Positions 11,101-30,821 of a DNA stretch of 64,000 bases are shown here, one piece after another. The first letter of the stretch is position 1; each line of letters opens with the position of its first letter. Both the position numbers and the translations under genes were made by a program. Origin of the DNA: Methanoregula sp. (GTDB lineage: Archaea; Halobacteriota; Methanomicrobia; Methanomicrobiales; Methanospirillaceae); the NCBI GenBank assembly GCA_026625165.1, contig CP112999.1:124001-188000 (forward strand), written 5' to 3'. The notes below the pieces were generated by a model. That model worked only from the letters and a program-made list of their open reading frames with translations, was not told where the DNA came from and did no database searches.

Positions 11101-11236
11101 AATGGATCTGGAGATCCGTAGAGATCATCGTTTCAGTACCGACTGCCAGGACATGCCCGTTAACCAGCAGGGAAAATACTAAGGTTGTAACTATGAATTT
11201 AAAAAGAGAAAAATTAGTATTTCTTTGAGGATCCAT
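8114..11236 (-). CDS. Large surface protein: beta-propeller repeats, two PKD domains, C-terminal membrane anchor
   Basis: A 1040-residue secreted protein. Residues about 10-33 form a signal peptide. From about 40 to 350 there are six or seven TolB-like propeller repeats with the recurring pattern I-GD-(R/W)IVW-D(N/K)R----DIY-YD. Two PKD domains follow (about 356-440 and 445-525), each with the WDFGDG-like core (WLWKFGDGTTST; WAWDFGDLGTST). A beta-rich region (about 530-745), a Gln/Ser/Asn-rich linker (about 765-805) and another beta domain (about 810-980) precede a single transmembrane helix near 1000-1027 and a basic tail GRRGR. Such architecture is typical of methanogen cell-surface adhesins or S-layer-associated proteins. 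It lies 12 bases downstream of the calpain-like peptidase gene, so the two are probably cotranscribed. Confidence 0.85.
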   Translation of the reverse strand: MDPQRNTNFSLFKFIVTTLVFSLLVNGHVLAVGTETMISTDLQIHSNINPAIGDQWIVWEDNSNQSIIAYNYQTGVEITLRKTLSFAKEPGISGDRVVWYEWDGVGTYDIYYTDLDSYDGTTNRLPLTGVSQKIHPAVSGNKIVWENVTAGHSDVDMFDLTGGNWHILTPGTGDSDQTWPSIGSDRVVWLDKRMNAEGDIYMIDTGSPPPWPTTEIFNGGGLTQFPPVINSDLIAWSGDSGGGSFDIFKYDLSVGGPAQQVTVAGSNKISPAVCSTYLIWMDDQIVGDPNYDLAFFDSSLPPELIITTTSSLVRNSIPPDWKPGLNSDNHIIWQDDRGAPTQIYMYTYGTVVSCPAALYTENITSGAPPLAVQFTDASTNSPTHWLWKFGDGTTSTAQSPAHTFSTGGTYDVELTAGSPHCRNTTTGALVHRISVGAAPIPSIIGSPREGIAPLTVVFNGSATGAPTGWAWDFGDLGTSTNQNHTYIYNTPGRYSVSLTATNIYGPGVTTEPNYIIVKAGAHSLATTNIAGLTASTIGSNQQITINSGAIPSVNPDPTILITRPPDVFGWQNLTLVSDSDGFSFTAPNYIGNITHVILQIKDLTPTGFPAEIGSNLPVNYEMHHNRYTIPAMLYSEIWNGTIPTDNTNFENIIQGSGFSSKNVAYTLNTTRSGITAPSHAFVNMSVASDWVQGSTSLPDGRDKTFVIMMGWDTCDKLWGTVLKPVFVGHDGVNNLEFFEVEIPSQISYMSKFALAKLSGSGNVFQMAYLGATDHSGASQQSAGSESGADTGDGKSTGQGLGSQQNQPSQNQPEANPAAPTAKSADLYINDQGVVTQTTVLESADQFATIAIGQGVTAFDSGGNPLSSVSIETLSVHHIFGMPSPNTLSFAGLAYNFQPDGATFSPSVTITFTPPNAQWSQQYTISQFDAKSGSWIDLPTTYDTKSGTVSTSVSHFCCIALFSSAIPSKVPVTASVTMEVPPETIPTPSPSSPLGIFYNMVIFIAGIAVKNLYLILIIIAIIAILYLKGRRGRLDKIRYKL

Positions 11237-11248
11237 AACCTGATCCCT

Positions 11249-12781
11249 TCATGTAAACCTCACCCATCCGATTCCTTGGAATGTGGACTCGAACCATTCC
11301 TGTTTAAGACCGAACAGACCATCGGTTCTGATAGAATTATCCTGTAGTTTCCCAAGATATTGAGTAATATTTGCTTTGGGGGTCCAGATACCATTTGCGA
11401 GTTTGTCCCATCCCAGTGCAGTAATATCTCCGGCATAATTCTTTCCCCATGGGTTGCGGAGGACTATGTATTTACCAGCACCGTTTGTTAGGGTTCCGAG
11501 GACAGAATAGGTATGTCTGGATGCGATGGTAGTGTCAGAATAACTGGCATCACCAGGAATCGGGTCATCAGGAATCTGATTTCCGGGATCGTAGGTCCAT
11601 GCAACTGTCGGGTACTTGGTCTTTGAAGAATTGCCATTTATTACAGCATTGTATTTTATTAGGATATCATAACTGTGCATGTATTGAACCGGGTTTGTAT
11701 TTGGTATTTTCAGAATAGGATTGTCATTGTTTCTTATATCGCGGATGAGAAATGCTGAGGGAAAATTCGTAATATTGTTTGTGCTGAAATCATATTTTTT
11801 CCCGGTCAGATTGAAAAGGGAATTGAGGGGGCTCCCATCGGATAAAGTACCAATATCCAGATCTCCGGATTGCCGCCCTTCAATAGGGGATCCATCAGGT
11901 GCATACATCAGATCTGAAACGAGTGGTTTTGGGAGGAGTTGGTTAGTTACCAGAAAGTTATGGAATTTCGCGTATGCCTTTTCATATACTGAAGGATAGC
12001 TCTCATTTTGCTCCGTAGGCGAAGCATATACCGGCAGATTGTTCACATCAAGGATAATTCTTGAGTCAACACTGCTGTCATAAGACTGTTTGACTCCATT
12101 CAAATCTTTATAATAAAATCTGATTGTAAAAGGTTCATTGGTCAGATCCAAGGGGCATTTTGCTGCACCAATTGCTGTATAGTTCATCCATGTGTTTGAA
12201 TAAAGAGCAGCAATAAAATAGCAATCAATACTGGCTCCCTGCACACAATCATTAATCATCTGTCTTTCATCAGCTGGCGCCGGGCGGTAAACAAACGAAG
12301 GATTGGACGGTGCTTTTTGAATTTTTTTAGGACTTCCCCTGTTTTTTGCCGCGGCTCCAACCTGAGCATTTGTAGCAAACATGGGTAAGAAAAAGAGGAT
12401 TGGATTTAATGCCATAAATGAGCCTGATGAAAAAGAACTTTTTTTCATGATTTCCATCAGTTTATTTGCTACCAATTTGGGAGAATATATTAGTGCATTG
12501 TTTTTGGAATTAAATATTAGATTATACGGCATTCCAAAAGCCTGGATCAATTCCCGATCCGCCTTAATGAGATTGACCTCATATCCAAGGATCATCCGGG
12601 CGACAACGAAAGGATTTGCAGCACCAATATGACAATGGGATTTTTCATTATCTTTATCCCAATTTGGATTTTCTGTCCAACCTCCGTCACCAAACACTTT
12701 CTTTACAAAACCTCTGTCAGCCACCATTGGTTTTTTCATCGAGCCTGAAACAGTATCCCTCATTTTGAAGTTGTCCGACAT
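11249..12781 (-). CDS. Calpain-like (C2 family) cysteine peptidase
   Basis: A 510-residue protein with the papain-fold calpain triad visible: Cys187 in VQGASIDCYFIAAL, His423 in RHTYSVLGT, and Asn443 in VLRNPWG. The spacing and the DCYF, H-YS, RNPWG signatures match calpain catalytic subdomains. About 175 residues precede the catalytic core and show no recognised domain; a hydrophobic stretch at about 120-137 could be a membrane segment, but there is no classical signal peptide. Substrate is unknown. Its immediate neighbour is the giant surface protein (12-base gap), so surface-protein processing is a reasonable inference. Calpain-like peptidases are uncommon in archaea. Confidence 0.82.
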   Translation of the reverse strand: MSDNFKMRDTVSGSMKKPMVADRGFVKKVFGDGGWTENPNWDKDNEKSHCHIGAANPFVVARMILGYEVNLIKADRELIQAFGMPYNLIFNSKNNALIYSPKLVANKLMEIMKKSSFSSGSFMALNPILFFLPMFATNAQVGAAAKNRGSPKKIQKAPSNPSFVYRPAPADERQMINDCVQGASIDCYFIAALYSNTWMNYTAIGAAKCPLDLTNEPFTIRFYYKDLNGVKQSYDSSVDSRIILDVNNLPVYASPTEQNESYPSVYEKAYAKFHNFLVTNQLLPKPLVSDLMYAPDGSPIEGRQSGDLDIGTLSDGSPLNSLFNLTGKKYDFSTNNITNFPSAFLIRDIRNNDNPILKIPNTNPVQYMHSYDILIKYNAVINGNSSKTKYPTVAWTYDPGNQIPDDPIPGDASYSDTTIASRHTYSVLGTLTNGAGKYIVLRNPWGKNYAGDITALGWDKLANGIWTPKANITQYLGKLQDNSIRTDGLFGLKQEWFESTFQGIGWVRFT

Positions 12782-13045
12782 CGATCATTACCTCCCTTCC
12801 TGCCGATCCGCATAATAACAATACAGTTGTTTGAAAGATAGATCGGATCAATGTATACTTTCATTCAGGGTTGATAAATTTTTTCTATAATTATAATCAG
12901 CAATTTAAGATCAGCATTTTAAGGGATAATTCAAGGATTTTGGAATATTCCTTAAAAGGTATTGGGAACGTAAATAACCAAAAATATTGAAAATAAAATA
13001 GAATCTTTCGAAAAGATTTGAAATATGATCTCACTTCACTACTCA

Positions 13046-13620: not shown

Positions 13621-14232
13621 ATGGCTGAGGATATAAGAGACCTGATCGAAAAAATCAATCGGGAAGGGATTAGGGCTGCGGAAAAAAAGGCTCAGGAGAT
13701 AGAGGCTGCGGCAAAAAAAGAAGCCGATGACATTCTTGCTCATGCAAGGCTTGAGGCAGACAGAATTATTGCTGCCGCTCAGGACAGAATAGGCCGTGAA
13801 GACGAAAAAGAGAAGGTCCGGCTTGCCCAAGCAGGAAGGGACATGCTTCTTTCCTTAAGAAAAGAAATTACCTCGATGCTTGAGAGCATTATGGTTTGGG
13901 AAATCCGGCAGGCTTTAACCCCAGAGGCAATATTCAACCTTATATCCGGAGCAGCAAAGCAATATGGCGCCGGGGAAATTAGGGATATTACGGTTTTTCT
14001 GAATAAAGAGGACCTGGATGCCTTAGAAAAACATTTCCTGCACAAACTGAAAGAAGAAACGAAGAAAAATATTATTTTGAGGTCTTCGGAAGAAATTTCA
14101 GGTGGTTTTACCATAAGTTTTGATGATGGAAAATCCTGCTATGATTTTTCCGATAAAGCCCTGGCAGAATATATCGGTACATATCTCAAACCGAAATTAA
14201 ACAAGACTCTTCAGGAGGCAATCAAGGGATGA
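13621..14232 (+). CDS. V-type ATPase subunit E (peripheral stalk), bacterial type
   Basis: The 203-residue protein has a long charged N-terminal coiled coil (about 1-85, alternating KAQEIEAAAKKEADDILAHA heptads) and a globular C-terminal domain, the architecture of the V/A-type peripheral stalk subunit E. It is the first gene of a tight seven-gene operon. Sequence resemblance to the native subunit E at 25065 is low. No separate subunit G/H gene is present in this operon, so either another protein pairs with it or the stalk is composed differently, as in the chlamydial/spirochaetal operons that have the same order. Codon use is AT-richer than the housekeeping genes around. Confidence 0.8.
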   Translation: MAEDIRDLIEKINREGIRAAEKKAQEIEAAAKKEADDILAHARLEADRIIAAAQDRIGREDEKEKVRLAQAGRDMLLSLRKEITSMLESIMVWEIRQALTPEAIFNLISGAAKQYGAGEIRDITVFLNKEDLDALEKHFLHKLKEETKKNIILRSSEEISGGFTISFDDGKSCYDFSDKALAEYIGTYLKPKLNKTLQEAIKG

Positions 14233-14238
14233 AATAAG

Positions 14239-14769
14239 ATGGCAGATCTTTATACATATTTAATCGCAAGCCTGCCGATGCTGCATTTCGGAATGAAGCC
14301 GCCATTCTCTTTTGAGCGGTTCCTTGAAATATGTCGCCCTCTAATCCCAACAGAAGATTTTCAACTGTTACGTGCCCTCCCGCAACCCGAACAATATTTT
14401 ACAAAAGGCAGAAGACCCAGGATTATCCGGAAATGGATCGGGTTCGATGTTGCCTTAAGAAATGAACTGGTTAAGATACGTGCTACCAGAAAACACGTTG
14501 AGCCTGCGACATACCTGCGCCCTGAAGGCTCCAGCAGTTCTTCCCTTGCCCCTGCAATTGTGGCAGCGACCATCAATACTTCTGTTCTTGAGCGCGAGAA
14601 GGCACTGGATGAAACACGCTGGAAAGCTTTGGACGAGCTGGCAACAGGCCATTATTTTGATCTGGATTTTCTGATAACCTATGCCTATAAGTTATCGATA
14701 CTGGAACGATGGGAGAAAATACACAATGCAGACAGAACAATCCTGCTTAAACAAGCTTTACAGCATTAA
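14239..14769 (+). CDS. DUF2764-like protein, probable C-subunit equivalent of V-type ATPase
   Basis: A 176-residue protein beginning MADLYTYLIASLPMLHFGMKPPFSFERFLEIC, which matches the YYFLVASLPdL--d-KPP-S-eeFle-C pattern of DUF2764, a family found between subunits E and A in bacterial V-ATPase operons (Chlamydia, spirochaetes, Bacteroidetes). The rest is helical with a serine-rich loop (about 96-101). In those operons no canonical subunit C is present, and this protein is thought to take the central-stalk socket position. It starts seven bases after subunit E and ends 10 bases before subunit A. The functional role is inferred from position and family, not from motifs. Confidence 0.75.
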   Translation: MADLYTYLIASLPMLHFGMKPPFSFERFLEICRPLIPTEDFQLLRALPQPEQYFTKGRRPRIIRKWIGFDVALRNELVKIRATRKHVEPATYLRPEGSSSSSLAPAIVAATINTSVLEREKALDETRWKALDELATGHYFDLDFLITYAYKLSILERWEKIHNADRTILLKQALQH

Positions 14770-14779
14770 CGGAGAATAA

Positions 14780-16516
14780 ATGACAGCACCAAGAAAAGGC
14801 CGTATTACCAAAATCAACGGTAACATGGTCACTGTCAGGTTCGATTCTCCGGTCATGCAGAATGAGGTTGCCTATATCCTGCACGCAGGAGAGCGGCTTA
14901 AATCAGAAATCATCCGTGTGCACGGCAACCTTGCGGAGATGCAGGTCTATGAGGCAACCAGCGGTTTAAAAATCGGCGAAGAGGTTGAGTTTACCGGAGA
15001 GCTTCTTTCGGTTGAATTGGGACCGGGGATGCTCGGCCAGATATTTGACGGCCTGCAGAATCCTTTGCCTGAGGTTGCCAGACAATGCGGCTTTTTCTTA
15101 AAACGTGGTGTATATATCGAGGCGCTTTCTGATACCCGGGTCTGGGATTTTACTCCTCTGGTAAAACCCGGGGACAGAGTACGGGCCGGGGATAAAATCG
15201 GATTTGTGGTCGAAAAAATTTTCAGGCACTACTGCATGGTCCCCTTTTCTTTATCGGGAAATTTTGAAATTGTTTTTATTGAAAATGCCGGCAGTTTCAC
15301 TATCCGCCAGCCGGTTGCTCAGATAAAAGAGCCTAACGGAAAAATCCATCCTGTATATTTAAGCCAGCATTGGCCTGTGAAAATCCCAATCAAGGCATAT
15401 GCCGAGAAACTCAAGCCCGGCGAACCTCTGGTTACCAGGATGCGGCTTATAGATTCGCTTTTTCCTGTGGCCCGTGGAGGGACGTATTGCATTCCCGGTC
15501 CTTTTGGGGCAGGGAAAACAGTTTTGCAGCAACTGACCAGCCGGCATGCCGAAGTTGATGTGGTAGTTATTGCCGCCTGCGGCGAGCGTGCCGGAGAAGT
15601 AGTTGAAACAATAAAGACATTCCCTGCCCTGATTGACCCCAGAACCAACCGGCCATTAAGCGACCGCACCGTGATTATCTGTAATACCAGCTCCATGCCT
15701 GTAGCAGCAAGGGAATCCAGCGTCTACACGGCAGTAACCATTGCCGAATATTACCGTCAGATGGGTCTTAACGTACTTTTACTTGCAGACTCCACATCCC
15801 GCTGGGCCCAGGCCATGCGCGAGATGTCAGGAAGGCTCGAAGAGATCCCCGGAGAAGAGGCATTTCCCGCATATCTGGAGTCGCGCATCGCCTCTTTCTA
15901 CGAAAGGGCAGGTGTGGTGCGTTTATATGACGGCTCTACCGGTTCGGTTACAATTGGCGGGGCAGTCAGCCCTGCAGGCGGAAACTTTGAAGAGCCGGTA
16001 ACCCAGGCAACATTGAAAGTAGTAGGTGCATTCCACGGGCTTTCCCGCAGCCGTTCCGATGCCCGCAGATACCCGGCAATCGATCCGTTAATCAGCTGGA
16101 GCAAGTACAGGAGTTTTATTGATGAGAAACAGGAGGAGCGGGGGCACGGGATCCTGCGCAAGGGTAACGATGTGGCACAGATGATGAAAGTTGTCGGAGA
16201 AGAAGGGACTTCGCTTTCCGATTACACAGACTACCTGAAAGGGGAATTTTTTGATTCTGTCTATCTGCAGCAGAATGCCTTTGACGCAGTTGATGAAGCT
16301 ACTCCAAGAGAACGGCAGATATATGTCTTTGATTTTATATACCGCATTATGGAATCGGAATTTTTCGTTGAAGATAAAGGTACGGCTTTACATTTTTTTC
16401 AGCAGCTCAGACAACTTTTTAAGGGATGGAATTCCGCTCCCTGGCAGAGTGAAGAATATGAGAAAACTGAGAAAGAAATCAGGGCGTTTTTGCTCAAGCG
16501 GTTAAAGAAAGGTTAG
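14780..16516 (+). CDS. V-type ATPase catalytic subunit A, bacterial type
   Basis: A 578-residue catalytic subunit with Walker A GPFGAGKT (about 239-246), the GER loop ([13 protein letters not shown]) and Walker [21 protein letters not shown] (about 333-352), followed by the [19 protein letters not shown] segment. The A-subunit-specific non-homologous insertion (about 110-200) is present. It hydrolyses or makes ATP in the A3B3 head. Compared with the native A subunit at 27019, the P-loop differs (GPFGAGKT here against GGFGTGKT there) and many blocks differ in sequence, so this is not a recent local duplicate. Spacing to subunit B is one base. Confidence 0.93.
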
Positions 16517-16517
16517 C

Positions 16518-17810
16518 ATGCAGAAATTATATACCAACATAATTCAGATTGCCGGGGACGTCATTACTGTCGAGGCAGAAAACGTAGGCAATACAGAGAT
16601 GGCCCAGGTGACGACAGGGCGGAGAACTTCCCTGGCCCAGGTCATCCGCCTTGACGGAAAAAAAGTATTTTTACAGGTTTTTGCAGGAAGCCGCGGCATT
16701 TCAACGGGCGATAAAGTCAGATTTTTGGGACACCCGATGCGAATCGCCACCGGTACAACTCTTTTAGGCCGGATTTTTAACGGGAGCGGTATGCCGCTGG
16801 ATAACGGGCCGGCACTTTCTGATAATCTCATCGATATCGGCGGCCCCCCGGTCAACCCGGTAAAAAGAATTATACCGGACAAGATGATTCGTACCGGAAT
16901 ACCCATGATAGATGTGTTCAACTCCCTGGTTGTGTCCCAGAAGCTCCCGGTTTTTTCCATTGCCGGCGAGCCATATAATGAATTACTGGCAAGCATAGCA
17001 ACACAGGCGGAAGTCGATATCATCATTTTAGGCGGCATGGGTTTAAAATACGACGATTACCTTTTCTTTAAAGACACCCTTGAAGAACACGGCGCTCTTT
17101 CCCATTCGATTGTGTTTATGCATACCGCAGCCGATCCGGTCGTGGAGTGCCTGCTTGTTCCGGATATCAGTCTGGCGGTTGCAGAAAATTTCGCCCTTGA
17201 GGGAAAACGGGTACTGGTATTATTGACGGATATGAGTAATTTCTGCGATGCGTTAAAAGAGATTGCCATTACCATGCAGCAGATCCCCTCCAACCGGGGA
17301 TACCCGGGCGACCTGTACAGCCAGCTGGCAGCGCGTTATGAAAAAGCAGTTGATTTTGATACCGCAGGCTCAATTACTATTCTTGCAGCAACCACGATGC
17401 CAGGAGATGATGTAACTCACCCGATTCCGGACAATACCGGCTATATTACGGAGGGTCAATTCTACCTTAAGAACGCCGTGATTGAGCCATTCGGGTCCTT
17501 AAGCCGTCTGAAGCAGCAGGTCAACGGCAAAACCCGTGATGACCACCGGACGATTATGGATACCATGATCCAGCTTTTTGCCGATTACCGCGAAACGCAG
17601 GAAAAGCAGGCCATGGGGTTTCAGATGAGTGCCTGGGACATCAAGCTTCTTAAATACGGAAAACTCTTTGAAGACAAAATGATGTCGCTAAAGGTGAATA
17701 TCCCGTTAGAGAAAGCGCTGGACCTGGGCTGGGAGATTCTGCACGATTGTTTCTCGCCCGACGAAACCGGGATTAAGAGATCCATGATAGACAAGCACTG
17801 GCCGAAATAG
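16518..17810 (+). CDS. V-type ATPase regulatory subunit B, bacterial type
   Basis: The 430-residue non-catalytic head subunit, shorter than the native B subunit (465). It keeps [20 protein letters not shown], the [22 protein letters not shown] region and the [19 protein letters not shown] segment that supplies the interface, while the Walker A region is degenerate ([18 protein letters not shown]), as expected for B subunits. The C-terminus ([20 protein letters not shown]) is of the bacterial type. It is separated from A by one base and from D by one base. Confidence 0.92.
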
Positions 17811-17811
17811 T

Positions 17812-18423
17812 ATGAAAATAAAACTTACTCAGGGAGAGCTTAAAAGACAAAGAGATGCCTTGCATCAGTACGAGAGGTATCTGCCCACCCTGCAGCTAAA
17901 AAAGCAGCTGTTGCAGCTTGAGATTGTACACCAGCAGAATGTTCTGGCAAAGAGAAAGAATTCGCTGTCCGTAAAGGAGAAATCAGCGGAAAACTGGTCC
18001 GGGCTTTTAATTGAGGCACCCGAAATCAGGCAATGGCTTATCATTAAAAAAACCATTGCCGTAAACAAGAACGTTGCCGGGGTTGATGTGCCGGTTTTTG
18101 AACGTGCAGATTTTGAGCAGGCAGAGTATGACCTGTTCTTAACACCTCTTTGGGTGGATGCCGTGCTGGAAACAATAAAGGATATGATCTCTTTACTGGA
18201 AGAGATAAGGGTCATTGAACAGGGAATATCTGTTCTTCAGCATGAATTGCGTATTACCACGCAGCGCGTCAACCTGTTCGAAAAGGTAAAAATCCCCGGG
18301 GCAAAAGAAGCAATCCGTACAATTAAAATCTATATCGGGGACCAGATGACCAATGCCGTGGGCCGCAGTAAAATTGCCAAAAATAAAATTGAAAAAGCTA
18401 ATCTGGAGGAGGTGGCGGTATGA
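17812..18423 (+). CDS. V-type ATPase central rotor subunit D, bacterial type
   Basis: A 203-residue, almost fully helical protein with two long coiled-coil arms (about 1-65 and 125-195), the design of the rotating D subunit. The C-terminal arm contains RITTQRVNLFEKVKIPGAKEAIRTIKIYIGDQ, equivalent to the RRVNALE--LIP segment of canonical D subunits, and the same segment is seen in the native D subunit at 30159 (TRRRVNALEQVLIPDL). Its stop overlaps the start of subunit I (ATGA), so the two are translationally coupled. Confidence 0.88.
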   Translation: MKIKLTQGELKRQRDALHQYERYLPTLQLKKQLLQLEIVHQQNVLAKRKNSLSVKEKSAENWSGLLIEAPEIRQWLIIKKTIAVNKNVAGVDVPVFERADFEQAEYDLFLTPLWVDAVLETIKDMISLLEEIRVIEQGISVLQHELRITTQRVNLFEKVKIPGAKEAIRTIKIYIGDQMTNAVGRSKIAKNKIEKANLEEVAV

Positions 18424-20225
18424 TTGTTCCGATGAAAAAAGCCACTGTCCTTATCGAAACAAAAGACTCAGAAGCAACAATAAAACATCTGAGTAAATTA
18501 GGGGTTTTGCACGTTGAGCACCAGATTCAGCCACAGGACAGAGATATTTCTGCGCTCCAGGAAAAAGCGACCCTGATTGATTCTTCGTTTGAAGTCTTAA
18601 ACCCGGTGATTGAGATAGAGAAAAACATACAACCGCAGAAGAAAATCAGCGGGGACTGGGTGACGGTTGCCAGCCACATCATCGGACTGGGCAGGCGAAA
18701 GGAACAACTGGAGATATCTTTTAGAAACATCACCGGTCAGATCAATGAGTGGGCGCGATGGGGTGATTTTGATCTCCACCAGATTCAGTACCTTAACCAA
18801 AACGGCATTTACCTTAAACTTTTCAAGGTACCGGTAAAAGAGATCAAGAGTTTTCCAAAAGACGTGATGGTGAAAACGATATTTACGGAAGGCGAGAGTG
18901 CTCATTGCGTCGCGATATCCCAAAGGTCGTTCGAATGCACTTTTTTAGAAATTCTTCCGCCAAAGCAAAGCCTGTCTCTGCTTAAAGAGCGGCTGGCCGA
19001 GGATATTAAGGCTGCAGAAATGATTGAAGGGGAGATTATTGAATGCGCCTGTTTTTATGATGACCTCTCGGGAGTCAGGACAAAACTAAAAAAAGAAATT
19101 GAATTGCAGCAGGTAGTAAACGGCATGGGGAAAGAAGGGGCAATCAGCTATGTAACCGGTTACATCCCATTTGACGCAGAAGGGCATCTCATTGCAAAAG
19201 CTAAAAGTAGGAAATGGGGGATTGTCATCACCGAACCTTCCGAATGGGATAATGTACCGACGCTCCTGCGAAATCCCAGATGGGTCAGTATGATTAAGCC
19301 TGTGCTTGGTTTTCTGGGGCTCACACCCGGATATCACGAACTTGATGTGAGTATGCCGTTTCTGATCTTTTTTGCAATCTTCTTTGGCATTCTTATCGGT
19401 GATGCCGGTTATGGGATGGCCTATTCTTTAATCACGCTCCTGATCACGATCTGGTTATGGAAAAAGATGAAGCTGAATACTGAGATAAAAACCATTATTT
19501 CGTTATTTTTTCTTTTAAGTTCCTCTGCAATACTGTGGGGTGTTCTGACTGGTACCTTCTTTGGTCAGACATGGTTGCTGAACTTAGGGTTTAAACCTCT
19601 GGTTCCCCAGTTAAACAATCCCACCTTCATACAAACGTTCTGCTTCTTTATCGGCGCGCTGCATTTATCTATTGCCCATTCATGGCGGGCATACCTGAAA
19701 ATTCCGTCGCTGAAAGCGCTAGCTGATGTGGGGTATATCTGCATCCTCTGGACCGCATTTTTCCTGGCCAATACGTTAGTCCTGGGAGAAGCATTTCCAC
19801 CGTGGGGGATATGGCTGGTCGTTACAGGGGTTGTCCTTGTGATTTTATTTACAAACCCCCAACCAAATATTCTGAGAGCCATCGGAGAAGGGCTTGGGAC
19901 GATAGTGTTGAGCTTTATGAACAACATTACAGATGTGATCTCGTATGTACGGCTTTTTGCGGTTGGGCTGGCAACTCTCGCCATAGCAGAGACTGCGAAC
20001 ACCCTGGCATCCGGGACATCCGGATTCGGAAATGGTGTCGTAGCTCTTGTGGCAGGTGTCGTAATTCTTATCATTGGTCATGGCCTAAACCTCATGTTAG
20101 GACTGATGTCAGTACTCGTGCACGGTGTCAGGCTGAATGTGCTTGAATTTTCGGGACATGCGAATGTGGCTTGGAGCGGGGTGGAATTCAAGCCATTAAA
20201 GAATGAACAGGAGGACATCGTATGA
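18420..20225 (+). CDS. V-type ATPase membrane subunit I (a), bacterial type
   Basis: A 601-residue stator subunit. The N-terminal half (about 1-310) is cytoplasmic and helical; the C-terminal half holds about seven or eight transmembrane helices, beginning at SMPFLIFFAIFFGILIGDAGYG (about 310). The essential arginine that faces the rotor is in DVISYVRLFAVGLA (about 502-515), followed by a conserved HGLNLMLGLMSVLVHGVRLNVLEF block near the C-terminus. It overlaps D by 4 bases and K by 4 bases. It differs markedly from the native subunit I (640 residues) at 22655. The ion half-channels sit here, but ion choice is better read from subunit K. Confidence 0.9.
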   Translation: MIVPMKKATVLIETKDSEATIKHLSKLGVLHVEHQIQPQDRDISALQEKATLIDSSFEVLNPVIEIEKNIQPQKKISGDWVTVASHIIGLGRRKEQLEISFRNITGQINEWARWGDFDLHQIQYLNQNGIYLKLFKVPVKEIKSFPKDVMVKTIFTEGESAHCVAISQRSFECTFLEILPPKQSLSLLKERLAEDIKAAEMIEGEIIECACFYDDLSGVRTKLKKEIELQQVVNGMGKEGAISYVTGYIPFDAEGHLIAKAKSRKWGIVITEPSEWDNVPTLLRNPRWVSMIKPVLGFLGLTPGYHELDVSMPFLIFFAIFFGILIGDAGYGMAYSLITLLITIWLWKKMKLNTEIKTIISLFFLLSSSAILWGVLTGTFFGQTWLLNLGFKPLVPQLNNPTFIQTFCFFIGALHLSIAHSWRAYLKIPSLKALADVGYICILWTAFFLANTLVLGEAFPPWGIWLVVTGVVLVILFTNPQPNILRAIGEGLGTIVLSFMNNITDVISYVRLFAVGLATLAIAETANTLASGTSGFGNGVVALVAGVVILIIGHGLNLMLGLMSVLVHGVRLNVLEFSGHANVAWSGVEFKPLKNEQEDIV

Positions 20226-20665
20226 TACAATTCAGTGATCTGGGAATGGGTCTGGTACTCGGCCTGTCTGCCTGCGGTTCTGCTGCCGGAGCAGGTATTG
20301 CCGGAATGGCTGCGATTGGAGCATGGAAGAAGAAGTACAGCCAGAATAAGCCGGCGGCATTTATGCTCGTTGCTTTTGTCGGTGCGCCGCTTACCCAGAC
20401 GATCTATGGAATGATCGTCATGAACGGGATGTATGAACTTGCTGCTCAGGGCCAGTACCTTGTGGGTATCGGTGCCTTCTGCGGTATGGGTATCGGCCTG
20501 TCTGCCTACTTTCAGGGTAAATGTGCTGCCTGCGCCTGCGACGCCATGGAAGAAACCGGCAAGGGATTTGGCAATTACATGATCATACTGGGCATAACCG
20601 AGACCGTGGCCCTGCTGGTGATGGCGTTTACCTTGGGCATTTTGAGTAAGCTTGCCGGAGGATAA
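20222..20665 (+). CDS. V-type ATPase rotor subunit K, duplicated four-helix form with predicted Na+ site
   Basis: A 147-residue proteolipid with two helical hairpins (about 5-70 and 80-145), the duplicated V-type form. Only the second hairpin carries the ion-binding carboxylate (Glu127 in GITETVALL); the equivalent place in the first hairpin is Thr58-Gln59 (PLTQTIYG). Gln98 (YFQGK) lies in helix 3. Thr, Gln, Gln and Glu in these places are the ligands known from the sodium-binding Enterococcus hirae NtpK, so a sodium site is predicted. One carboxylate per four helices gives a low ion-to-ATP ratio, favouring pumping over synthesis. Five cysteines (18, 87, 101, 104, 106) are unusual in a c-type subunit. 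Confidence 0.9.
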   Translation: MIQFSDLGMGLVLGLSACGSAAGAGIAGMAAIGAWKKKYSQNKPAAFMLVAFVGAPLTQTIYGMIVMNGMYELAAQGQYLVGIGAFCGMGIGLSAYFQGKCAACACDAMEETGKGFGNYMIILGITETVALLVMAFTLGILSKLAGG

Positions 20666-20841: not shown

Positions 20842-21708
20842 TTATTCCGGCGTACGGATGATGATTACCGGCCGTTTTGCGTTCGTAGCCACCGTATGCG
20901 CTGTGCTGCCGAGCATCAGTTCACGGAACCAGCCTCTTCCATGGGAGCCCATCCAGATGACTGAAACGTCCTCCTCATCGGCAATTCTTATGATCTCGAG
21001 GGGGGGATCCCCCCACTTTACAATTGCCCTGACTTTTATGCCCTTTGCAGCAACACTGCTGCGGATTGCTTCCACCTGTTCCTTTGACTTCAGGACCGCA
21101 TTCTCGATCTCCCTTTTAGTCTCGCCCTGAGATACCACATGGAGGAGAATGACCTCCCCCACCCCCCTTGTCGTGCTGAGAAGGGATATCGCACGGTCAG
21201 AGTATTGAGAGAAATCAATCGGACAGAGGATCCGGGAGAGTATCATCGGGCAGAACATTTCATAGGTCTTCCCCTTTATCTTCTCGATAATTTTATGGCG
21301 CATAATCAGCACATTGGTCCTGCTTTGGCGGAGAACTCCCATTGATACGCTGCCAAGAAGGATCCCATCCACAAGGCTGTTCCCCCGTGCACCTACAACA
21401 ATCAGGGAAACGCCTCTTTCCTCGGCTGTTTCGATAATTGCTCCGGCGGTGTCAGATGAGATCTTTACCGACGTTGTCACCCTAAGATTTTTGCTGAGGT
21501 TTTCAAGATAGTATTTCTCTTCCTCGAGGAAATTTTCGCCGGTCCGGTAGAATATATCCCCTATCTTTCCACCCCCCCTCGGAGATCTGGCCTCTTCGAC
21601 AACGTGGAGCAGGATGACATCACGGGCTCCCGGAAAACCGGCGATGCAGTCAAGCGTCTTCTTTGCATATTCTGAAAAATCCGTGGGGAAGAGCACTTTT
21701 TCAAACAT
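20842..21708 (-). CDS. Tandem universal stress protein (two UspA domains)
   Basis: The 288-residue protein has two UspA domains, residues about 1-135 (MFEKVLFPTDFSEYAKKTLD) and about 150-288 (MILSRILCPIDFSQYSDRA). Each ends with the ATP-binding pattern: GARGNSLVDGILLGSVS (first) and GSHGRGWFRELMLGSTAHTV (second), matching G-2x-G-9x-G(S/T). Such proteins bind ATP and respond to stress; the client is unknown. It lies between the two rotary ATPase operons on the opposite strand, and converges with the V-type operon. Confidence 0.9.
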   Translation of the reverse strand: MFEKVLFPTDFSEYAKKTLDCIAGFPGARDVILLHVVEEARSPRGGGKIGDIFYRTGENFLEEEKYYLENLSKNLRVTTSVKISSDTAGAIIETAEERGVSLIVVGARGNSLVDGILLGSVSMGVLRQSRTNVLIMRHKIIEKIKGKTYEMFCPMILSRILCPIDFSQYSDRAISLLSTTRGVGEVILLHVVSQGETKREIENAVLKSKEQVEAIRSSVAAKGIKVRAIVKWGDPPLEIIRIADEEDVSVIWMGSHGRGWFRELMLGSTAHTVATNAKRPVIIIRTPE

Positions 21709-22327: not shown

Positions 22328-22648
22328 ATGGTGCCGGAAAAATCCGTTTTGCAGCAGGTTCGTGAAAAGGAGCTGATGTTCAGCATCAAAATATATGAGG
22401 CACGCGGGAAAGCCGAAGAAGTAATCCAGAATGCAAGAAAAGAAGCCTCTGAAATGGTTGAGAATTCAGAGAGGGAGGGGAAAAAGGCAGCCCGGGAATT
22501 ATACGAAAGAGAGATGGAAATCATACGACAGGAGGTTGAGCAGCTCAGAAGTCAGGGCATACAGGAGGCAAAGGCAACAAAAGCAGAGGCGGAACGTAAT
22601 TTAGAACCAGCGATCCGGAATATCGTGACAACTGTCTCAATGGGATAG
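22328..22648 (+). CDS. ahaH: A-type ATP synthase subunit H (peripheral stalk)
   Basis: A 106-residue protein that is one continuous coiled coil from about residue 8 to 95, with the charged heptads of AhaH/G subunits (EEVIQNARKEASEMVENSER). It pairs with subunit E to form the peripheral stalk. The ATG at 22328 has AAGGGGG seven bases upstream. It is the first gene of the native operon H-I-K-E-C-F-A-B-D, the order known from methanogens, and lies 6 bases ahead of subunit I. Confidence 0.88.
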   Translation: MVPEKSVLQQVREKELMFSIKIYEARGKAEEVIQNARKEASEMVENSEREGKKAARELYEREMEIIRQEVEQLRSQGIQEAKATKAEAERNLEPAIRNIVTTVSMG

Positions 22649-22654
22649 GGCACC

Positions 22655-24577
22655 ATGCTGCAGAAGATGAGAAAAGTCCAGATCATAGGGCCGAAAAAAG
22701 AACTGCAGAGCGTTGTTGATATCCTGTACCATACCGGAACTGTTCATCTTGAGGACCTCTCAAAGACCATCCTTCCGGGTGATACCATCTTACGGAAGAT
22801 GGATATCGAAAAAGGCGGGGATATCGCAAACATTCTGGTAAAGATCGGGGGCATTTTCCTCGCTCTGCCCAAAATACGTGATGATGCCGGGAAGCAGGCA
22901 AAGATCTTAGAAGAACTCCGGATCAAAAGCCACAACGACCTGATTGCGAGGGCAAACCAGGTGATTGAGGAACTGGAATCGACCACAAAGGATCTTGCCT
23001 CGACCAAGAATGACCTGGAATTCACCCTTAATGCGCTGGACAGGTATGAAAAAATCATTAAAAAGATCCAGCCATTGGAGAACCAGTTGCCGATTCTGGA
23101 AGGGTTTGAAGTTACAGTCATCCTCATTCAGCGCGAGTTCAAGGATGTCCTTGAGATCATAAGGAATACGCTTGTCGAAATTACCAGAAATCAGTTCGAA
23201 CTGATCTCTGCGGATGTGGACGAGGCAACCATTGCGACGGTTGTCGTGTTCAACAAGAAATACTCCGAACAGGTGCACTCGTTCATCTTCTCCCAGAATG
23301 TGAACGAGGTCAGGCTGCCATCGGAATATCTGGGAAAACCGTTCCATGAAGTCCTTCACCTGATTACGGAAAAAAGAACAAAGTTGGGTGAGGAGATCGG
23401 GGTCATTGATAACAAACTCGTGAAACTCTCGGCAGAATGGTACCAGGAGCTTGCAGTCCTCAAAAAGGTGCTTGATGACAGGAATGAAGAAGCAGGAGTC
23501 TTTGGCAAATTCGGCCAGACAGAGTATACTTTTTTTATCCTTGGCTGGATCCCCAAAAAATATCTGGGCAGTACAAAAGAGGTCCTGAAAAATACATTCG
23601 GAAACCGGGTCATCGTCAACGAGCTTGACGTGAGTCCGGATAATATGGACGAGGCACCGACGTTCTATGATAACCCGGCGTTCGTGAAACCTTTTGAATT
23701 CCTCATGCAGATGGTCAGCCCGCCCAAGTACCGCGAGGTCGACCCGAGCCCGTTGTTTGCGATTTTCTTCCCGTTCTTCTTCGGTCTCATGGTCGGCGAT
23801 ATTGCGTACGGGATCATTATCCTTGTGTTTGCCCTGATCATGAAAAAGAAGTATAAAATGGAAATCTGGCTCCAGCACCTGATGAACATCCTGATCATAT
23901 CCTCGATCCCGACTATCTTTTTTGGGATCCTCTTTGGCGAATTCTTTGGGAATTTCGGTGAAGAGATGGGCTGGATCCATCCGGTCAACTTTCTTGGCAT
24001 AACCTGGAACAGGATCGAGGCGTTGGTGCCTTTGCTCATCCTTGCGATTGCCATAGGGGTGTTCCATGTATTCCTTGGTCTCGCCATTGGAATTATCAAT
24101 TCCCTTGCCAAGAAGAGCAGGAAACATGCGATTGAAAAGGCGGGGATGATCGCCGCGATCACCGGGCTCCTCCTCATCATCGGAGCCTCGGCAAAGATGT
24201 TTCCCGAGATCCTCCTTCAGCCAGGAGTTGTGCTGATCATTATCGCGCTACCGTTAATCATCTATGGCGGCGGATTCTTCGGAGTATTTGAGATCATGAG
24301 CACTGTCGGCAACATTCTTTCCTATGCCCGTATCATGGCAATCGGGATGGCATCGGTCATTCTCGCTCTGGTCGCCAATAAACTCGGGGGAATGATGGAT
24401 GTTGCACTGGTCGGGTTTTTAATCGCCGCCCTTCTGCATATAGTTAATATCGGCCTTGCGATGTTCAGCCCGTTTTTACATTCCTTCAGGCTGCATGTAG
24501 TAGAATTCAATTCCAAATTTTACGAGGGAGGGGGAAAGATGTACAAACCGTTTAAAAGGGAAGAAAAAGGAGGATGA
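22655..24577 (+). CDS. ahaI: A-type ATP synthase membrane subunit I (a)
   Basis: The 640-residue stator subunit. The cytoplasmic half (about 1-355) is helical; the membrane half starts near PSPLFAIFFPFFFGLMVGDIAYG (about 365) and has about eight helices. The essential arginine is in NILSYARIMAIGMASV (about 550-565). The C-terminus has HIVNIGLAMFSPFLHSFRLHVVEF as in other archaeal subunits I. Function: forms the ion half-channels against the K ring. A second ATG at 22667 is an alternative start. It is clearly a different lineage from the subunit I at 18420. Confidence 0.93.
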   Translation: MLQKMRKVQIIGPKKELQSVVDILYHTGTVHLEDLSKTILPGDTILRKMDIEKGGDIANILVKIGGIFLALPKIRDDAGKQAKILEELRIKSHNDLIARANQVIEELESTTKDLASTKNDLEFTLNALDRYEKIIKKIQPLENQLPILEGFEVTVILIQREFKDVLEIIRNTLVEITRNQFELISADVDEATIATVVVFNKKYSEQVHSFIFSQNVNEVRLPSEYLGKPFHEVLHLITEKRTKLGEEIGVIDNKLVKLSAEWYQELAVLKKVLDDRNEEAGVFGKFGQTEYTFFILGWIPKKYLGSTKEVLKNTFGNRVIVNELDVSPDNMDEAPTFYDNPAFVKPFEFLMQMVSPPKYREVDPSPLFAIFFPFFFGLMVGDIAYGIIILVFALIMKKKYKMEIWLQHLMNILIISSIPTIFFGILFGEFFGNFGEEMGWIHPVNFLGITWNRIEALVPLLILAIAIGVFHVFLGLAIGIINSLAKKSRKHAIEKAGMIAAITGLLLIIGASAKMFPEILLQPGVVLIIIALPLIIYGGGFFGVFEIMSTVGNILSYARIMAIGMASVILALVANKLGGMMDVALVGFLIAALLHIVNIGLAMFSPFLHSFRLHVVEFNSKFYEGGGKMYKPFKREEKGG

Positions 24578-24694
24578 GGTGATGTAATGTGTGTTGAGTA
24601 CGTCGCAGGGTATCGTAAAGGTTCTGTATGACGGTTGAAAATTGACAGCAGCAGTAGTTGTGTTATTTGATTAAAAAAAGGGGTGTTGTTAACA

Positions 24695-24913
24695 ATGGTG
24701 GACTGGGGAATTCCTATTGGAGCCGGAATTGCATTCGGACTTGGGGCATTGGGAACAGGTATTGCACAATCAAAGATCGGGTCTGCGGGAGCAGGAACAA
24801 TTGCAGAAAGACCTGAGACGTTCGGTCTCATGGTAATTCTCGTTGCAATTCCCGAAACTCTTGTGATTCTTGGTTTCGTGGTCGCGGCAATGATCATGAT
24901 CATGCTTGTATGA
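24695..24913 (+). CDS. ahaK: A-type ATP synthase rotor subunit K, two-helix form
   Basis: A 72-residue proteolipid with a single hairpin: helix 1 about 6-28 (GIAFGLGALGTGIAQSKIGS) and helix 2 about 44-70, with the ion-binding Glu54 in VAIPETLVILGF. Gln25 in helix 1 and Thr55 beside the glutamate could take part in sodium binding as in other methanogens, but this is not decisive. One carboxylate per hairpin gives a high ion-to-ATP ratio, right for ATP synthesis. The ATG at 24695 is chosen because aaggggtg lies about ten bases upstream; an earlier in-frame codon at 24683 has no such site. Unusually wide gaps (117 and 151 bases) flank this gene. Confidence 0.9.
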   Translation: MVDWGIPIGAGIAFGLGALGTGIAQSKIGSAGAGTIAERPETFGLMVILVAIPETLVILGFVVAAMIMIMLV

Positions 24914-25013
24914 ATATATGCCCGTACCATAACCGCCAAATGTACGAGGGTATATTGAACCATGCCATATCGGGTGTCTTACGTAACCGGTAACTTTTGG
25001 GGGATTATGAGGA

Positions 25014-25030
25014 TTGGATATAAAAATACC
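25014..25030 (+). promoter_or_regulatory. Possible internal promoter between K and E
   Basis: The K-E gap is 151 bases, whereas most other genes of the operon touch or overlap. It contains ttggatataaaaatacc, a good archaeal TATA-like box, about 40-50 bases upstream of the subunit E start at 25065. An internal promoter here would uncouple the highly needed K transcript from the E-to-D genes. Seen by pattern only. Confidence 0.4.
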
Positions 25031-25064
25031 TGCTGGAGAGCAATGAACCGGGGTTGGTAATCAG

Positions 25065-25661
25065 ATGTCTATTGAGCAGTTGATCGAATCCGTCGAGGTG
25101 AGTGCTGAAGAAAAGATCAGCGAGCTGTTAAAAAAGGCAGAAGACGATGCTGCAGAGATTAAGAAAGATGCACAGGCAAAGGATGAAATTATCAAAAAGA
25201 GGCATCTGGCAGCGACCAAAAAATCAATCGAGATGGAGAGAAACAAATTGCTCGCAAAGGTAAAAGAGGAGACCCGGATGGAGTTGACCCGGGTCAAGGA
25301 TGAAGTCTTCAGAAAAGCCTTTTTGGAAGCCCAAAAAATTCTTTCGTCGGCAAGAGAGCAACCGGATTACGAAAATAATTTCAAAAAATTGCTGTCAGAG
25401 GCGGTTCTGGAGATTGAAGGCGGAGAAATCAGCCTGCACATCGACAAACGGGATGAGACCCTCTGTAAAAAGCTGTTGCCGCAACTCAAACTGAACTGCG
25501 ATATCGTTACCGATGTTACCTGTGCCGGGGGGTTGAATGCGGGCACAAAAGATGGCAGATTCGTCGTGTTCAATACGATAGAGTCGAGGTTTGAAACGGC
25601 AAAGGAGATCTTAAAACCGGAAATTATTGAAATACTGTACGGTGGTAAGGGTGGAGTATGA
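25065..25661 (+). CDS. ahaE: A-type ATP synthase subunit E (peripheral stalk)
   Basis: The 198-residue stalk subunit: an N-terminal coiled coil (about 5-85, ELLKKAEDDAAEIKKDAQAK) and a globular C-terminal head (about 95-198) with GGEISLHIDKRDETLCKKLL and the closing ESRFETAKEILKPEIIEILYGG, which is typical for archaeal E. A GGGTTGG lies about 8 bases upstream of the ATG. The 3' end overlaps subunit C by 11 bases. Confidence 0.9.
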   Translation: MSIEQLIESVEVSAEEKISELLKKAEDDAAEIKKDAQAKDEIIKKRHLAATKKSIEMERNKLLAKVKEETRMELTRVKDEVFRKAFLEAQKILSSAREQPDYENNFKKLLSEAVLEIEGGEISLHIDKRDETLCKKLLPQLKLNCDIVTDVTCAGGLNAGTKDGRFVVFNTIESRFETAKEILKPEIIEILYGGKGGV

Positions 25662-26700
25662 CTACGTAAACGCACGGATCAAGGGCATGAAAAGTCGCCT
25701 GCTTGACCCGCACGTCTTTGAGACCCTGATCCTTAAGCCCGATGTTGAATCCGTCATTGCCGAGCTGGAAAACACGCCCTATAAAGAGGAGATAGAAAAA
25801 GCCAGTGTCCAGTATTCCGGGATTGCATGTATTGAGGTGGCGTTGCGGAAGGATTTCACGAATGCGTTCCGGAAGATCTTAAAATACATGAAAGGGGGGG
25901 ATGCCGAAGATTATTTACGCATCCTACTGGGCCGGTGGGATGTCCAGAACATCAAGACCATCCTGCGGGGAAAGAACATCCACGTGACACCGGCAGAGAT
26001 CATCGAGTGCCTGGTCCCGGCAGGAGAACTGGATGACGTTACATTGATCGAGCTGATCAAGCAGCAGGACCCCAAGTCAGTGATCGACCTCCTTGCCACG
26101 TGGGGGATCGATTATGCAAAGCCTCTGACACGGAATTTCAGGGAATATTCTGAAAAAAGGGATCTTGCAGTCCTTGAGTATGCGATTGACCGGTTTTATT
26201 TTGAACATGCACTGAAAACGCTCAAAGAAGATGGATATGACGATCATGTCGTCCGTGACATGGTCATGACGGAGATTGATGTGACCAATATCAAGAGCGT
26301 GCTCCGGATGATACGGGATCACATCGAGATTGAAGAGGCGCAGAGGTATTTGATCAAGGGCGGGATCACACTGAATCCCGAGAAGCTGCTCTCCATGGTC
26401 AGGTCAGGAACGCTCGAAGGTGCGATCAAGTTCCTGGAGACAACGCCATACAGCTTCCTCTCCAAAGTACCCGATGAGGTTTTCAAAGCACAAAAAATAT
26501 CGGTATTCGAAAAAGAACTCGAGAAATACCTTGTAAAGCAGGGGATGGGCCGGATCCTTGGCGACCCCTTAAGTATCGCAATCGCTGTGGGTTATATCTG
26601 GGCAAAATACAACGAAATCACCAACATCAGGATCATCGCGCGGTGCAAGACGGCAGATGTTCCTGAAAGAGAAGTGAGGGAGGAACTGATCTATGTATAA
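25651..26700 (+). CDS. ahaC: A-type ATP synthase subunit C
   Basis: Subunit C caps the rotor ring and carries the central stalk. The GTG at 25651 is preferred because VEYDYVNARIKGMKSRLL is the usual N-terminus (Y-YVNARV--M); a longer frame from 25627 exists. The 349-residue product shows three similar helical repeats typical of C/d subunits, for example DYLRILLGRWDVQNIKTILRG and VMTEIDVTNIKSVLRMIRD. It overlaps E by 11 bases and F by 8 bases. Confidence 0.9.
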   Translation: MEYDYVNARIKGMKSRLLDPHVFETLILKPDVESVIAELENTPYKEEIEKASVQYSGIACIEVALRKDFTNAFRKILKYMKGGDAEDYLRILLGRWDVQNIKTILRGKNIHVTPAEIIECLVPAGELDDVTLIELIKQQDPKSVIDLLATWGIDYAKPLTRNFREYSEKRDLAVLEYAIDRFYFEHALKTLKEDGYDDHVVRDMVMTEIDVTNIKSVLRMIRDHIEIEEAQRYLIKGGITLNPEKLLSMVRSGTLEGAIKFLETTPYSFLSKVPDEVFKAQKISVFEKELEKYLVKQGMGRILGDPLSIAIAVGYIWAKYNEITNIRIIARCKTADVPEREVREELIYV

Positions 26701-27013
26701 ATTTGTGGTTGTCACCGATCCTGATTCGGCGCCGGGGTTCCGGCTTGCCGGTGTGGATGTTCTTGAGGCATCGGGTCTTGACGAGGCAAAGAAGATCATA
26801 TCCCCCCTTATCTATAAGGACGATACGGGGATCATCGCGATCAGTGAAGACCTGATGGCCGGACTGGACGAAAAACTGATAGAAAAGATCAACAGGACAT
26901 ACCGTCCGATCATCATTCCAATCCCTTCGAGGATTAAGGGTATCGACAGGACGAGTTACATCGAACGTCTGCTGCAGAGGGCGATCGGGTATAACATCGT
27001 GATAAGGAGGTAG
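26693..27013 (+). CDS. ahaF: A-type ATP synthase subunit F
   Basis: A 106-residue Rossmann-like central stalk subunit. The pattern [20 protein letters not shown] at the N-terminus and the middle segment [20 protein letters not shown] are typical of archaeal F. It modulates rotor activity by binding D and B. The ATG overlaps the end of subunit C by 8 bases. No F-type gene exists in the bacterial-type V operon at 13621, so this is the only F in the window. Confidence 0.9.
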
Positions 27014-27018
27014 GGGTC

Positions 27019-28761
27019 ATGATAACAGGGGTTATTTCACGGATTTCCGGTCCGGTGGTTCTTTCGGACCAGATGAAAGGATCGAAGATGTATGACGTCG
27101 TGAAAGTGGGGAACGAGGAACTGAACGGGGAGATCATACGCCTTGATGGCAGCCAGGCGGTCGTTCAGGTCTATGAGGACACGTCGGGCCTGAAGATCGG
27201 TGAGAAAGTCCTGAACACGGAAACGCCCCTCTCGGTTGACCTCGGCCCGGGTCTCCTCTCCTCGATTTATGACGGCATCCAGAGACCGTTGCCGGTGCTG
27301 GAAAAAAAGAGCGGCAGTTTCATTTCCCGTGGTATCGCCGTCCCGGGGATTGACAGGGAAAAGAAGTGGGAGTTTGTCGCAACTGCAGGGAAGGGGGATG
27401 CGGTATCCGGTGGCGACATTATTGGGACCGTGAAGGAGTACCATATCGAACACAGGATCATGGTTCCCCACCACATTTCAGGAACCATACGGGAGATCCA
27501 TAGCGGCGTGTTCACGGTTGAAGAACCCGTCTGCACGCTCGAGGGCGGTGTCCCGATAACGATGCTGCAGAAGTGGCCCGTCAGGAAAGGGAGGCCCTAC
27601 CAAAAAAAGATGGACCCGCGCCTGCTCCTAATCACCGGGCAGAGAATTTTTGATACCATGTTCCCGGTGGCAAAAGGAGGAACCGCCATGATCCCCGGTG
27701 GTTTTGGAACAGGAAAGACGGTGGCAGAACAGACCCTTGCAAAATGGTCCGACACCCAGGTTGTAGTGTACATCGGCTGCGGGGAACGGGGAAATGAGAT
27801 GACCGATGTGCTGACCGAATTTCCCGAGCTTGTGGATCCAAGAACAAAGATGCCCCTTATCCAGCGGACAATCCTGATCGCAAACACATCGAACATGCCC
27901 GTGGCAGCGAGGGAAGCCTCGATCTACACCGGGATCACGATGGCGGAGTACTACCGGGACATGGGATATGACGTTGCCCTGATGGCAGACTCCACATCAA
28001 GGTGGGGCGAGGCATTGAGGGAAGTCTCGGGCAGGCTGGAAGAGATGCCAGGCGAAGAAGGATACCCTGCGTACCTTGCGACACGGCTGGCCGCATTCTA
28101 TGAGCGGGCCGGACGGGTGGTCTGTCTCGGTTCCGGCGGGGAACGCCTTGGCTCCATCACGATTATCGGTGCGGTATCGCCACCGGGCGGGGATTTCTCG
28201 GAACCCATTACCCAGAACACACTCAGGATTGCAGGAACCTTCTGGGCGCTTGATACCAGTCTTGCATACCGGCGGCATTTCCCGTCCGTGAACTGGATCA
28301 AGAGTTACTCGCTCTATCTGGAAAGCTTTCAGGACTGGTTTGTCCAGAGCGGATTTGTCGACTGGAAGGAGTTGCGGGACAGGACGATGTACCTTTTACA
28401 GAAAGAGGTTGAACTGCAGGAGATCGTGCAGCTTGTCGGTCCGGATGCACTGCCGGAGAGTGAGAAAGTGATACTGGAGATCACGAGGATGATACGGGAG
28501 GATTTCCTCCAGCAGAGCGCCTACCATGAGGTCGATTCCTTCTGCCCGCTCGAAAAGCAGTACTGGATGCTCAAGGTCATCCTTGCGTTCTATGACCGGG
28601 CGAGCGAAGCGATGAATCAGGGAATTGCGCTGAACAAGATCCTGAAGCTGCCGCTCAAGGTAGAGATCGGAAGGATGAAGGAACAGGTTGACATGAACCG
28701 GATCCAGGGCCTGATTTCCGAGATTGATAAATATATCGGTGCACTTGAGGTGGAGAGATGA
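27019..28761 (+). CDS. ahaA: A-type ATP synthase catalytic subunit A
   Basis: The 580-residue catalytic subunit. Walker A is GGFGTGKT (about 229-236), Walker [20 protein letters not shown] (about 321-339), and the GER loop is [18 protein letters not shown]. Archaeal A subunits usually show GPFGSGKT; here the proline is glycine and the serine threonine, a variation worth noting and probably lineage-specific. The bulge region and the [20 protein letters not shown] segment are intact, so the enzyme should be active. GGTAGGGG precedes the ATG. Its end overlaps subunit B by 4 bases. Confidence 0.95.
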
Positions 28762-30155: not shown

Positions 30156-30158
30156 GCC

Positions 30159-30821
30159 ATGGAGCAGGTAAACCCGACAAGGATGGAACTCATCAAGAAA
30201 AACGCCCAGATCAAGCTCGCCGAGCAGGGCAGGAACCTTCTGCGGGAGAAGATGGATGCGCTCGTGCAGGAGTTCTTCCTCATCATGGAGTCGGTCTCCA
30301 AGTCGCGGGAGGAACTGGAGATCGTTGCCAGCTCAGCACAGCGCTCGCTTTTAACCGCTCTTGCCGTTGACGATTCTGTCACCCTAAAGTCTGCTTCCTT
30401 TGCCACACGGAAAGGCCTGTTCATCGATATCACGGGAAAAAATATCATGGGTGTCCCGGTCCCGGTACTTCAGAAAAAGAGGGTGGCAAAGAGCGTGCTG
30501 GAGAGGGGTTACAGTATTCTGGGAGTAAGCGGGAGGATCGATGAGGTGGCGGAGAAGTTCGAGATCGAACTGGACCTGATCATCGGGCTTGCTGAGACAG
30601 AGACCTCGCTTCGAAGGCTTGGGGGCGAGATCCAGATGACGCGGAGGAGGGTGAATGCGCTGGAGCAGGTGCTTATCCCGGATTTAAGAAAACAGGCAAA
30701 ATATATCGAAAATACCATTGACGAACGGGAACGGGAAGACCTGTTCCGGTTAAAAAAAGTGAAAAAGATTATCGAACGCAGGAAAAAGGCAGCCCAGAGA
30801 GCTCCTGCCGACCGGCAATAA
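30159..30821 (+). CDS. ahaD: A-type ATP synthase central rotor subunit D
   Basis: The 220-residue rotor shaft: two long antiparallel coiled-coil arms with PTRMELIKKNAQIKLAEQGR at the N-terminus and TRRRVNALEQVLIPDLRKQA near residue 162, both canonical for archaeal D. The C-terminal arm ends in a basic tail. This is the last gene of the native operon; a 170-base spacer with no gene follows. Confidence 0.93.
   Translation: MEQVNPTRMELIKKNAQIKLAEQGRNLLREKMDALVQEFFLIMESVSKSREELEIVASSAQRSLLTALAVDDSVTLKSASFATRKGLFIDITGKNIMGVPVPVLQKKRVAKSVLERGYSILGVSGRIDEVAEKFEIELDLIIGLAETETSLRRLGGEIQMTRRRVNALEQVLIPDLRKQAKYIENTIDEREREDLFRLKKVKKIIERRKKAAQRAPADRQ

Follow-up and report, generated by a model that had tools for sequence, protein, structure and literature searches.

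A predicted Na+-coupled, bacterial-type V/A-ATPase operon in a methanogen, probably acquired from Omnitrophota and alternating with a six-hairpin A1Ao ATPase

The 147-residue protein encoded at positions 20222–20665 (forward strand) of the window, the whole 64,000-nucleotide stretch of Methanoregula sp. DNA analyzed here, is likely the rotor subunit K of a complete, Na+-coupled and reversible V/A-type ATPase of bacterial type, which was probably acquired from Omnitrophota and fills a slot for which a six-hairpin archaeal A1Ao ATPase is the alternative.

Subunit K is the last of seven tightly packed forward-strand genes (13621–20665, in the order E, DUF2764, A, B, D, I and K), and its ATG overlaps the stop codon of subunit I (20225). 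Gene order and family models are those of the seven-gene bacterial V-ATPase with DUF2764, and five of the products score above their cut-offs: K (NCBIfam NF005174, "V-type ATP synthase subunit K", 176.9 bits, cut-off 127), the DUF2764 protein (14239–14769; Pfam PF10962, 40.8 bits, cut-off 24.1), catalytic subunit A (14780–16516; NCBIfam PRK04192, 754.7 bits, cut-off 470), subunit B (16518–17810; PRK02118, 731 bits, cut-off 431) and the central stalk subunit D (17812–18423; PRK02195, 206 bits, cut-off 189). The models matched by K, B and D are V-type, and we take all three to center on spirochaetes. Subunit E (13621–14232; PRK01558.1, 139 bits) and stator subunit I (18420–20225; 431.6 bits) fall under their NCBIfam cut-offs of 241 and 799. 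For subunit I, the best solved match is its counterpart in the Enterococcus hirae sodium ATPase (8wci_P, E 2.7e-21; Thermus 5gar_N, E 3.1e-9), and the arginines of ISYVRL and VHGVRL each align with an arginine in NtpI. The archaeal A1Ao subunits C, F and H are absent from 13621–20665 and present in 22328–30821. Against two relatives, dN/dS for all seven genes is 0.07–0.24, which denotes purifying selection and indicates that the operon is maintained. K belongs to a complete bacterial-type operon. A reading of the DUF2764 protein as a shrunken subunit C/d was not supported (hhalign probability 0.4%; E 0.034 at best among solved structures), and its structural model was too poor (pLDDT 52.7) for a fold search to be meaningful.

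Pfam ATP-synt_C covers two stretches of K, as two fused hairpins, and the predicted model, although of low confidence (pLDDT 61.5), places four helices at residues 7–41, 47–75, 81–112 and 115–146. In these predicted helices Glu127 is the sole acidic residue at a mid-helix position. The first-pass annotation had described K as duplicated, with one carboxylate per four helices, and this description holds. A Foldseek search with the same low-confidence model retrieved V-ATPase rotors; ranked by E-value, NtpK (2bl2_A) came third (E 0.042, probability 1.00).

By both hhalign and BLASTP (27% identity between K and NtpK), Thr58, Gln59, Tyr62, Gln98 and Glu127 of K correspond to Thr64, Gln65, Tyr68, Gln110 and Glu139 of NtpK, and a MAFFT alignment is concordant. 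Tyr68 of NtpK presumably also has a role at the Na+ site. Leu61 of NtpK, a ligand through its carbonyl, corresponds to Ala55 in K, where only the carbonyl matters and the side chain differs. Leu61, Thr64, Gln65, Gln110 and Glu139 are the Na+ ligands described in the cited part of Mulkidjanian et al. 2008 (PMC2359735). The proposal that Thr58/Gln59 and Gln98/Glu127 occupy the NtpK ligand positions, made from the sequence at the outset, is therefore confirmed by all three methods, including for Gln98 and Thr58, at which the alignment could have contradicted it.

Conservation of these residues was assessed in a first alignment and in a wider set. None of the five varies among the 22 sequences of the first alignment, from which L054 and four short matches (L050, L057, L059 and L060) were left out. 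Among the more distant Omnitrophota K of the wider set, Ser takes the place of Thr58 in 17 of 30, while Gln59, Tyr62, Gln98 and Glu127 are kept in all 30. Across the wider set as a whole, in which identical K were counted once and the sole Bacteroidota K (L135) was grouped with the first set, the same four residues occur in every K reaching the position, the gaps stemming from two partial K (L031, L060). Proton V-ATPase c subunits (human, bovine, rat, pig), by comparison, align with no Thr/Gln pair and with Ile at the Gln110 position. Na+ binding by K is strongly predicted from these alignments, and Na+ coupling is well predicted. Each K would bind one Na+ between its two hairpins, through the Ala55 carbonyl, Thr58, Gln59, Gln98 and Glu127; judging from the family, subunit I would load and unload Na+ as the ring turns, and rotation would be coupled to A3B3 via subunit D.

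From one carboxylate per four helices, the first-pass annotation had derived a low ion-to-ATP ratio and hence an ATP-driven pump. This step fails, as the ratio also depends on the size of the ring. In E. hirae, ten NtpK, a rotor subunit of the same type, form a ring that gives 10/3 = 3.3 Na+ per ATP (measured, 3.2 ± 0.4). This is the ratio of the E. coli F-ATPase, and the E. hirae enzyme synthesizes ATP under sodium motive force (PMC12018189, cited part). The argument for a low ratio is rejected on this published measurement of the E. hirae enzyme. Of the suggestion that a methanogen carries a separate Na+ pump, the separate Na+-coupled rotary enzyme remains, as a prediction, and the argument for pumping does not. 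The enzyme would be reversible, the sign of net flux being set by the sodium motive force against the phosphorylation potential.

The window carries a second rotary ATPase. Downstream of the V operon lie a convergent universal stress protein gene (Usp; 20842–21708, reverse strand), which adjoins the V operon in the methanogen loci that extend that far, and an archaeal A1Ao operon (22328–30821, forward strand; H, I, K, E, C, F, A, B, D), whose two-helix K (24683–24913) has 76 aa from its GTG and carries Glu54 if an ATG start is used. The one-contig genome holds three rotors in all: the V-type K, the adjoining 76-aa K and, at 2.07 Mb, a K of 91 aa. The last was considered as part of an F-type or N-type ATPase, which was ruled out, as it lies in a complete A1Ao operon (2068562–2076859 of the contig, reverse strand; 4562–12859 of locus L061) next to a phosphoglycerate kinase-like gene. 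With subunit I as the marker, 204 of the 232 genomes of Methanomicrobiales (132 of the 135 good ones) carry the 2.07-Mb type, compared with 98 of 232 (63 of 135) for the type adjoining the V operon. The two-helix K with Glu54 exists, as first annotated, but the "native" enzyme to which it was assigned is an accessory ATPase, and the near-universal one is that at 2.07 Mb. Rotors that lack a Tyr at the fifth position past the carboxylate are, as a rule, of the proton type. This rule, taken with a genus-level statement in ProAD (PMC11738941, cited part), would make both A1Ao proton-type, which is a rule-based guess.

We then considered what occupies the same place in relatives. In same-family genomes without the V operon, another A1Ao, with a six-hairpin K of ~483 aa, stands beside Usp and the accessory A1Ao. 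In all eight six-hairpin loci compared (L146–L153), K has 482–485 aa, with Gln replacing the carboxylate in hairpin 1 and Glu in the other five; of these loci, L152 and L153 come from other families and have no adjoining Usp, and L149 ends before that place. An apparently triple-hairpin K of ~243–254 aa was also seen in other genera. Within genus g9, the upstream genes are largely co-ordered in V carriers (G144, G145, G147) and six-hairpin carriers (G148, G152, G154), and within g17 the five genes nearest the site are likewise largely co-ordered between the two V carriers, G225 and G227, and the six-hairpin carrier, G221; in both genera, Usp and the A1Ao lie downstream beside either ATPase type. 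The swap is seen in these two genera, and the upstream genes of the window's own genome differ from theirs.

The distribution of the two types was also assessed. V markers are present in 29 of the 232 genomes (27 by B and two more by K) and a multi-hairpin K in 57, a count that takes in three-hairpin forms and fragments. The two occur together in none of the 232 genomes, compared with 7.1 expected (P 1.5e-4, a value that ignores kinship and comes from a set in which many genomes are incomplete). All 13 genomes of g9 have exactly one type (nine V, four six-hairpin); of those in g17, seven have the V type, three the six-hairpin type, and two, both incomplete, neither. A 24-row tree of the adjacent A1Ao, built without G230 and G151, whose stretches hold no A1Ao genes, requires two state changes, and the A1Ao itself moves between genera.

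Usp sequence tracks the ATPase type beside it and not the adjacent A1Ao. Mean identity among 20 V-side Usp is 63%, versus 43% between these and the four on the six-hairpin side, which are themselves diverse (45–76% identity). This is so although, in the six-hairpin carrier G221, A1Ao subunit A is 91% identical to that of V carrier G225. It is possible that Usp is a functional partner of the ATPase. In sister genomes, the Methanomicrobiales slot would be taken by an archaeal A1Ao whose six-hairpin K is likewise of the Na+ type, and the two enzymes would be alternatives for one role, that of a Na+-coupled enzyme beside the near-universal A1Ao. In its stricter form, a single exchangeable Na+-ATPase slot in which the V-type enzyme and the six-hairpin A1Ao swap in place with their own Usp, never together and perhaps with 10 Na+ per turn conserved, this reading is tentative, and we hold it at slightly less than an even chance. 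Should two six-hairpin K form a ring with ten Na+ sites, as ten V-type K would, the figure of 10 Na+ per turn might be preserved through a swap; with five carboxylates per six hairpins against one per two, the coupling ratios of the alternatives need not be equal.

A dedicated ATP-driven Na+ export pump, keeping internal Na+ low or sustaining Na+-coupled uptake when methanogenesis is slow, is a serious candidate, though we would sooner bet against it than for it. The loss of the first-hairpin carboxylate, with Gln59 in its place, presumably marks a pump-type rotor, and two A1Ao enzymes are already present for ATP synthesis. In the cell, the E. hirae enzyme does work as a Na+ pump, but the same rotor also makes ATP at 3.2 Na+ per ATP (PMC12018189, cited part). 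The same-site alternative, moreover, retains five of six carboxylates, and the authors of the work on the Bacteroides fragilis homologue propose Na+-driven ATP synthesis for it (PMC10790697, cited part). Since the methyltransferase Mtr generates a Na+ gradient (PMC5754280, PMC10579272, cited parts), ATP synthesis from that gradient appears slightly likelier than ATP-driven Na+ export.

Two other readings concern the coupling itself. That the enzyme is proton-coupled and its Na+ ligands a relic is very unlikely: some Na+ ligands do persist in proton enzymes (PMC2359735, cited part), but here the full set, with residue 58 as Thr or Ser, is present in every K reaching the positions, and it is gone from the c subunits of proton V-ATPases. 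Alternatively, the Na+ enzyme and the adjacent A1Ao might run in opposite directions through a shared ATP pool, amounting to Na+/H+ exchange. The adjacent A1Ao type is indeed found in 24 of the 29 V-operon genomes (12.3 expected) and lies beside the operon in most loci extending there. However, the 57 genomes with multi-hairpin K divide into 32 with that A1Ao and 25 without, and the proton specificity of the A1Ao is the rule-based guess described above; we therefore regard exchange as improbable. A reversible Na+-coupled enzyme in a slot shared with the six-hairpin A1Ao remains the preferred explanation.

To place the operon among its relatives, genome contigs were scanned, which yielded 26 loci, 15 with methanogen or euryarchaeal labels, 10 from Omnitrophota and one labeled Bacteroidota. 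The last (L054, JAKQLB010000387.1) was rejected as a carrier: Usp and the A1Ao follow its operon, so that it is a misbinned methanogen contig, and its own assembly has a distant V operon. Seven Omnitrophota loci (L035, L037, L041, L051, L052, L053, L058) have an identical gene order, with identities of 68–83% for K, 72–77% for A and 79–84% for B, and neither Usp nor an A1Ao operon lies beside the V operon in the Omnitrophota stretches read. In one of them, subunit B is in two frames (L035 6328–7567), a frameshift or an assembly error.

In a 39-row tree of A and B, the methanogen copies form one clade (100/100) within a 22-row clade shared with ten Omnitrophota (100/100), and in a 38-row tree of A, B, D, I and K they again form one clade (100/100) among Omnitrophota. 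Loci with incomplete gene sets (L036, L038–L040, L050, L054, L059, L060, L124, L131–L133, L138) were left out of the trees, and the five-gene tree also omits L134. The closest relatives of the V operon are, by these sequences, Omnitrophota enzymes. Constraining Omnitrophota to one clade is not rejected by the AU test (p 0.151 with two genes, 0.15 with five; the outgroup branch is long), so that the direction from Omnitrophota to methanogens rests mainly on breadth of distribution: the NF005174 cut-off is exceeded in 122 of 285 genomes of the Omnitrophota (the phylum of L035) versus 26 of 232 Methanomicrobiales. The operon was thus probably acquired from Omnitrophota.

Several known systems resemble this one in part. 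The E. hirae V-type Na+-ATPase (NtpK, 2bl2/8wci) shares the hairpin duplication, the Na+ ligands wherever the positions align, the single carboxylate of each K and the closest solved stator, but the window's operon lacks C, F and G/H and has DUF2764 instead, and K is only 27% identical. The B. fragilis V-ATPase likewise has seven genes, DUF2764 in second place and the Na+ ligands kept (PMC10790697, cited part); its host is bacterial, and the Bacteroidota B subunits found are 44–47% identical to the window's B. The same source calls DUF2764 exclusively bacterial, whereas here it is archaeal. The Omnitrophota V operons differ, in the stretches read, in having no adjoining Usp or A1Ao. Whole rotary ATPase operons also spread horizontally in Thaumarchaeota, another archaeal phylum, where the transfer is tied to acid soil and deep-sea habitats (PMC6863869, cited part). 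ProAD lists three A-ATPases for eight Methanomicrobiales genera, two of them H+-type and one Na+-type, a count that equals the three rotors of this genome; its section 7 does not tell the bacterial-type enzyme apart from the six-hairpin one, leaves the genera unnamed and does not mention the shared site (PMC11738941, cited part).

The enzyme type, the Na+ signature and a Na+ ATPase alongside two others in Methanomicrobiales are therefore already known. Apart from the ProAD count, our literature searches found no prior account of the in-place swap, the Omnitrophota link or an archaeal DUF2764, and we regard the Omnitrophota link, DUF2764 in an archaeon and the in-place alternation with the six-hairpin A1Ao as new. 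Whole rotary ATPases are usually viewed as stable housekeeping machines. Two very different Na+ machines at one site in close relatives constitute a natural experiment on rotor design in a shared bioenergetic setting. With them it can be tested whether the rotary enzyme that a methanogen retains is determined by coupling ion and ratio and not by ancestry, and why one small genome has three rotary ATPases. Elsewhere in the window, a 1298-aa open reading frame (32590–36486) was observed, whose motifs resemble those of the large subunit of DNA polymerase II, with what looks like an intein insertion.
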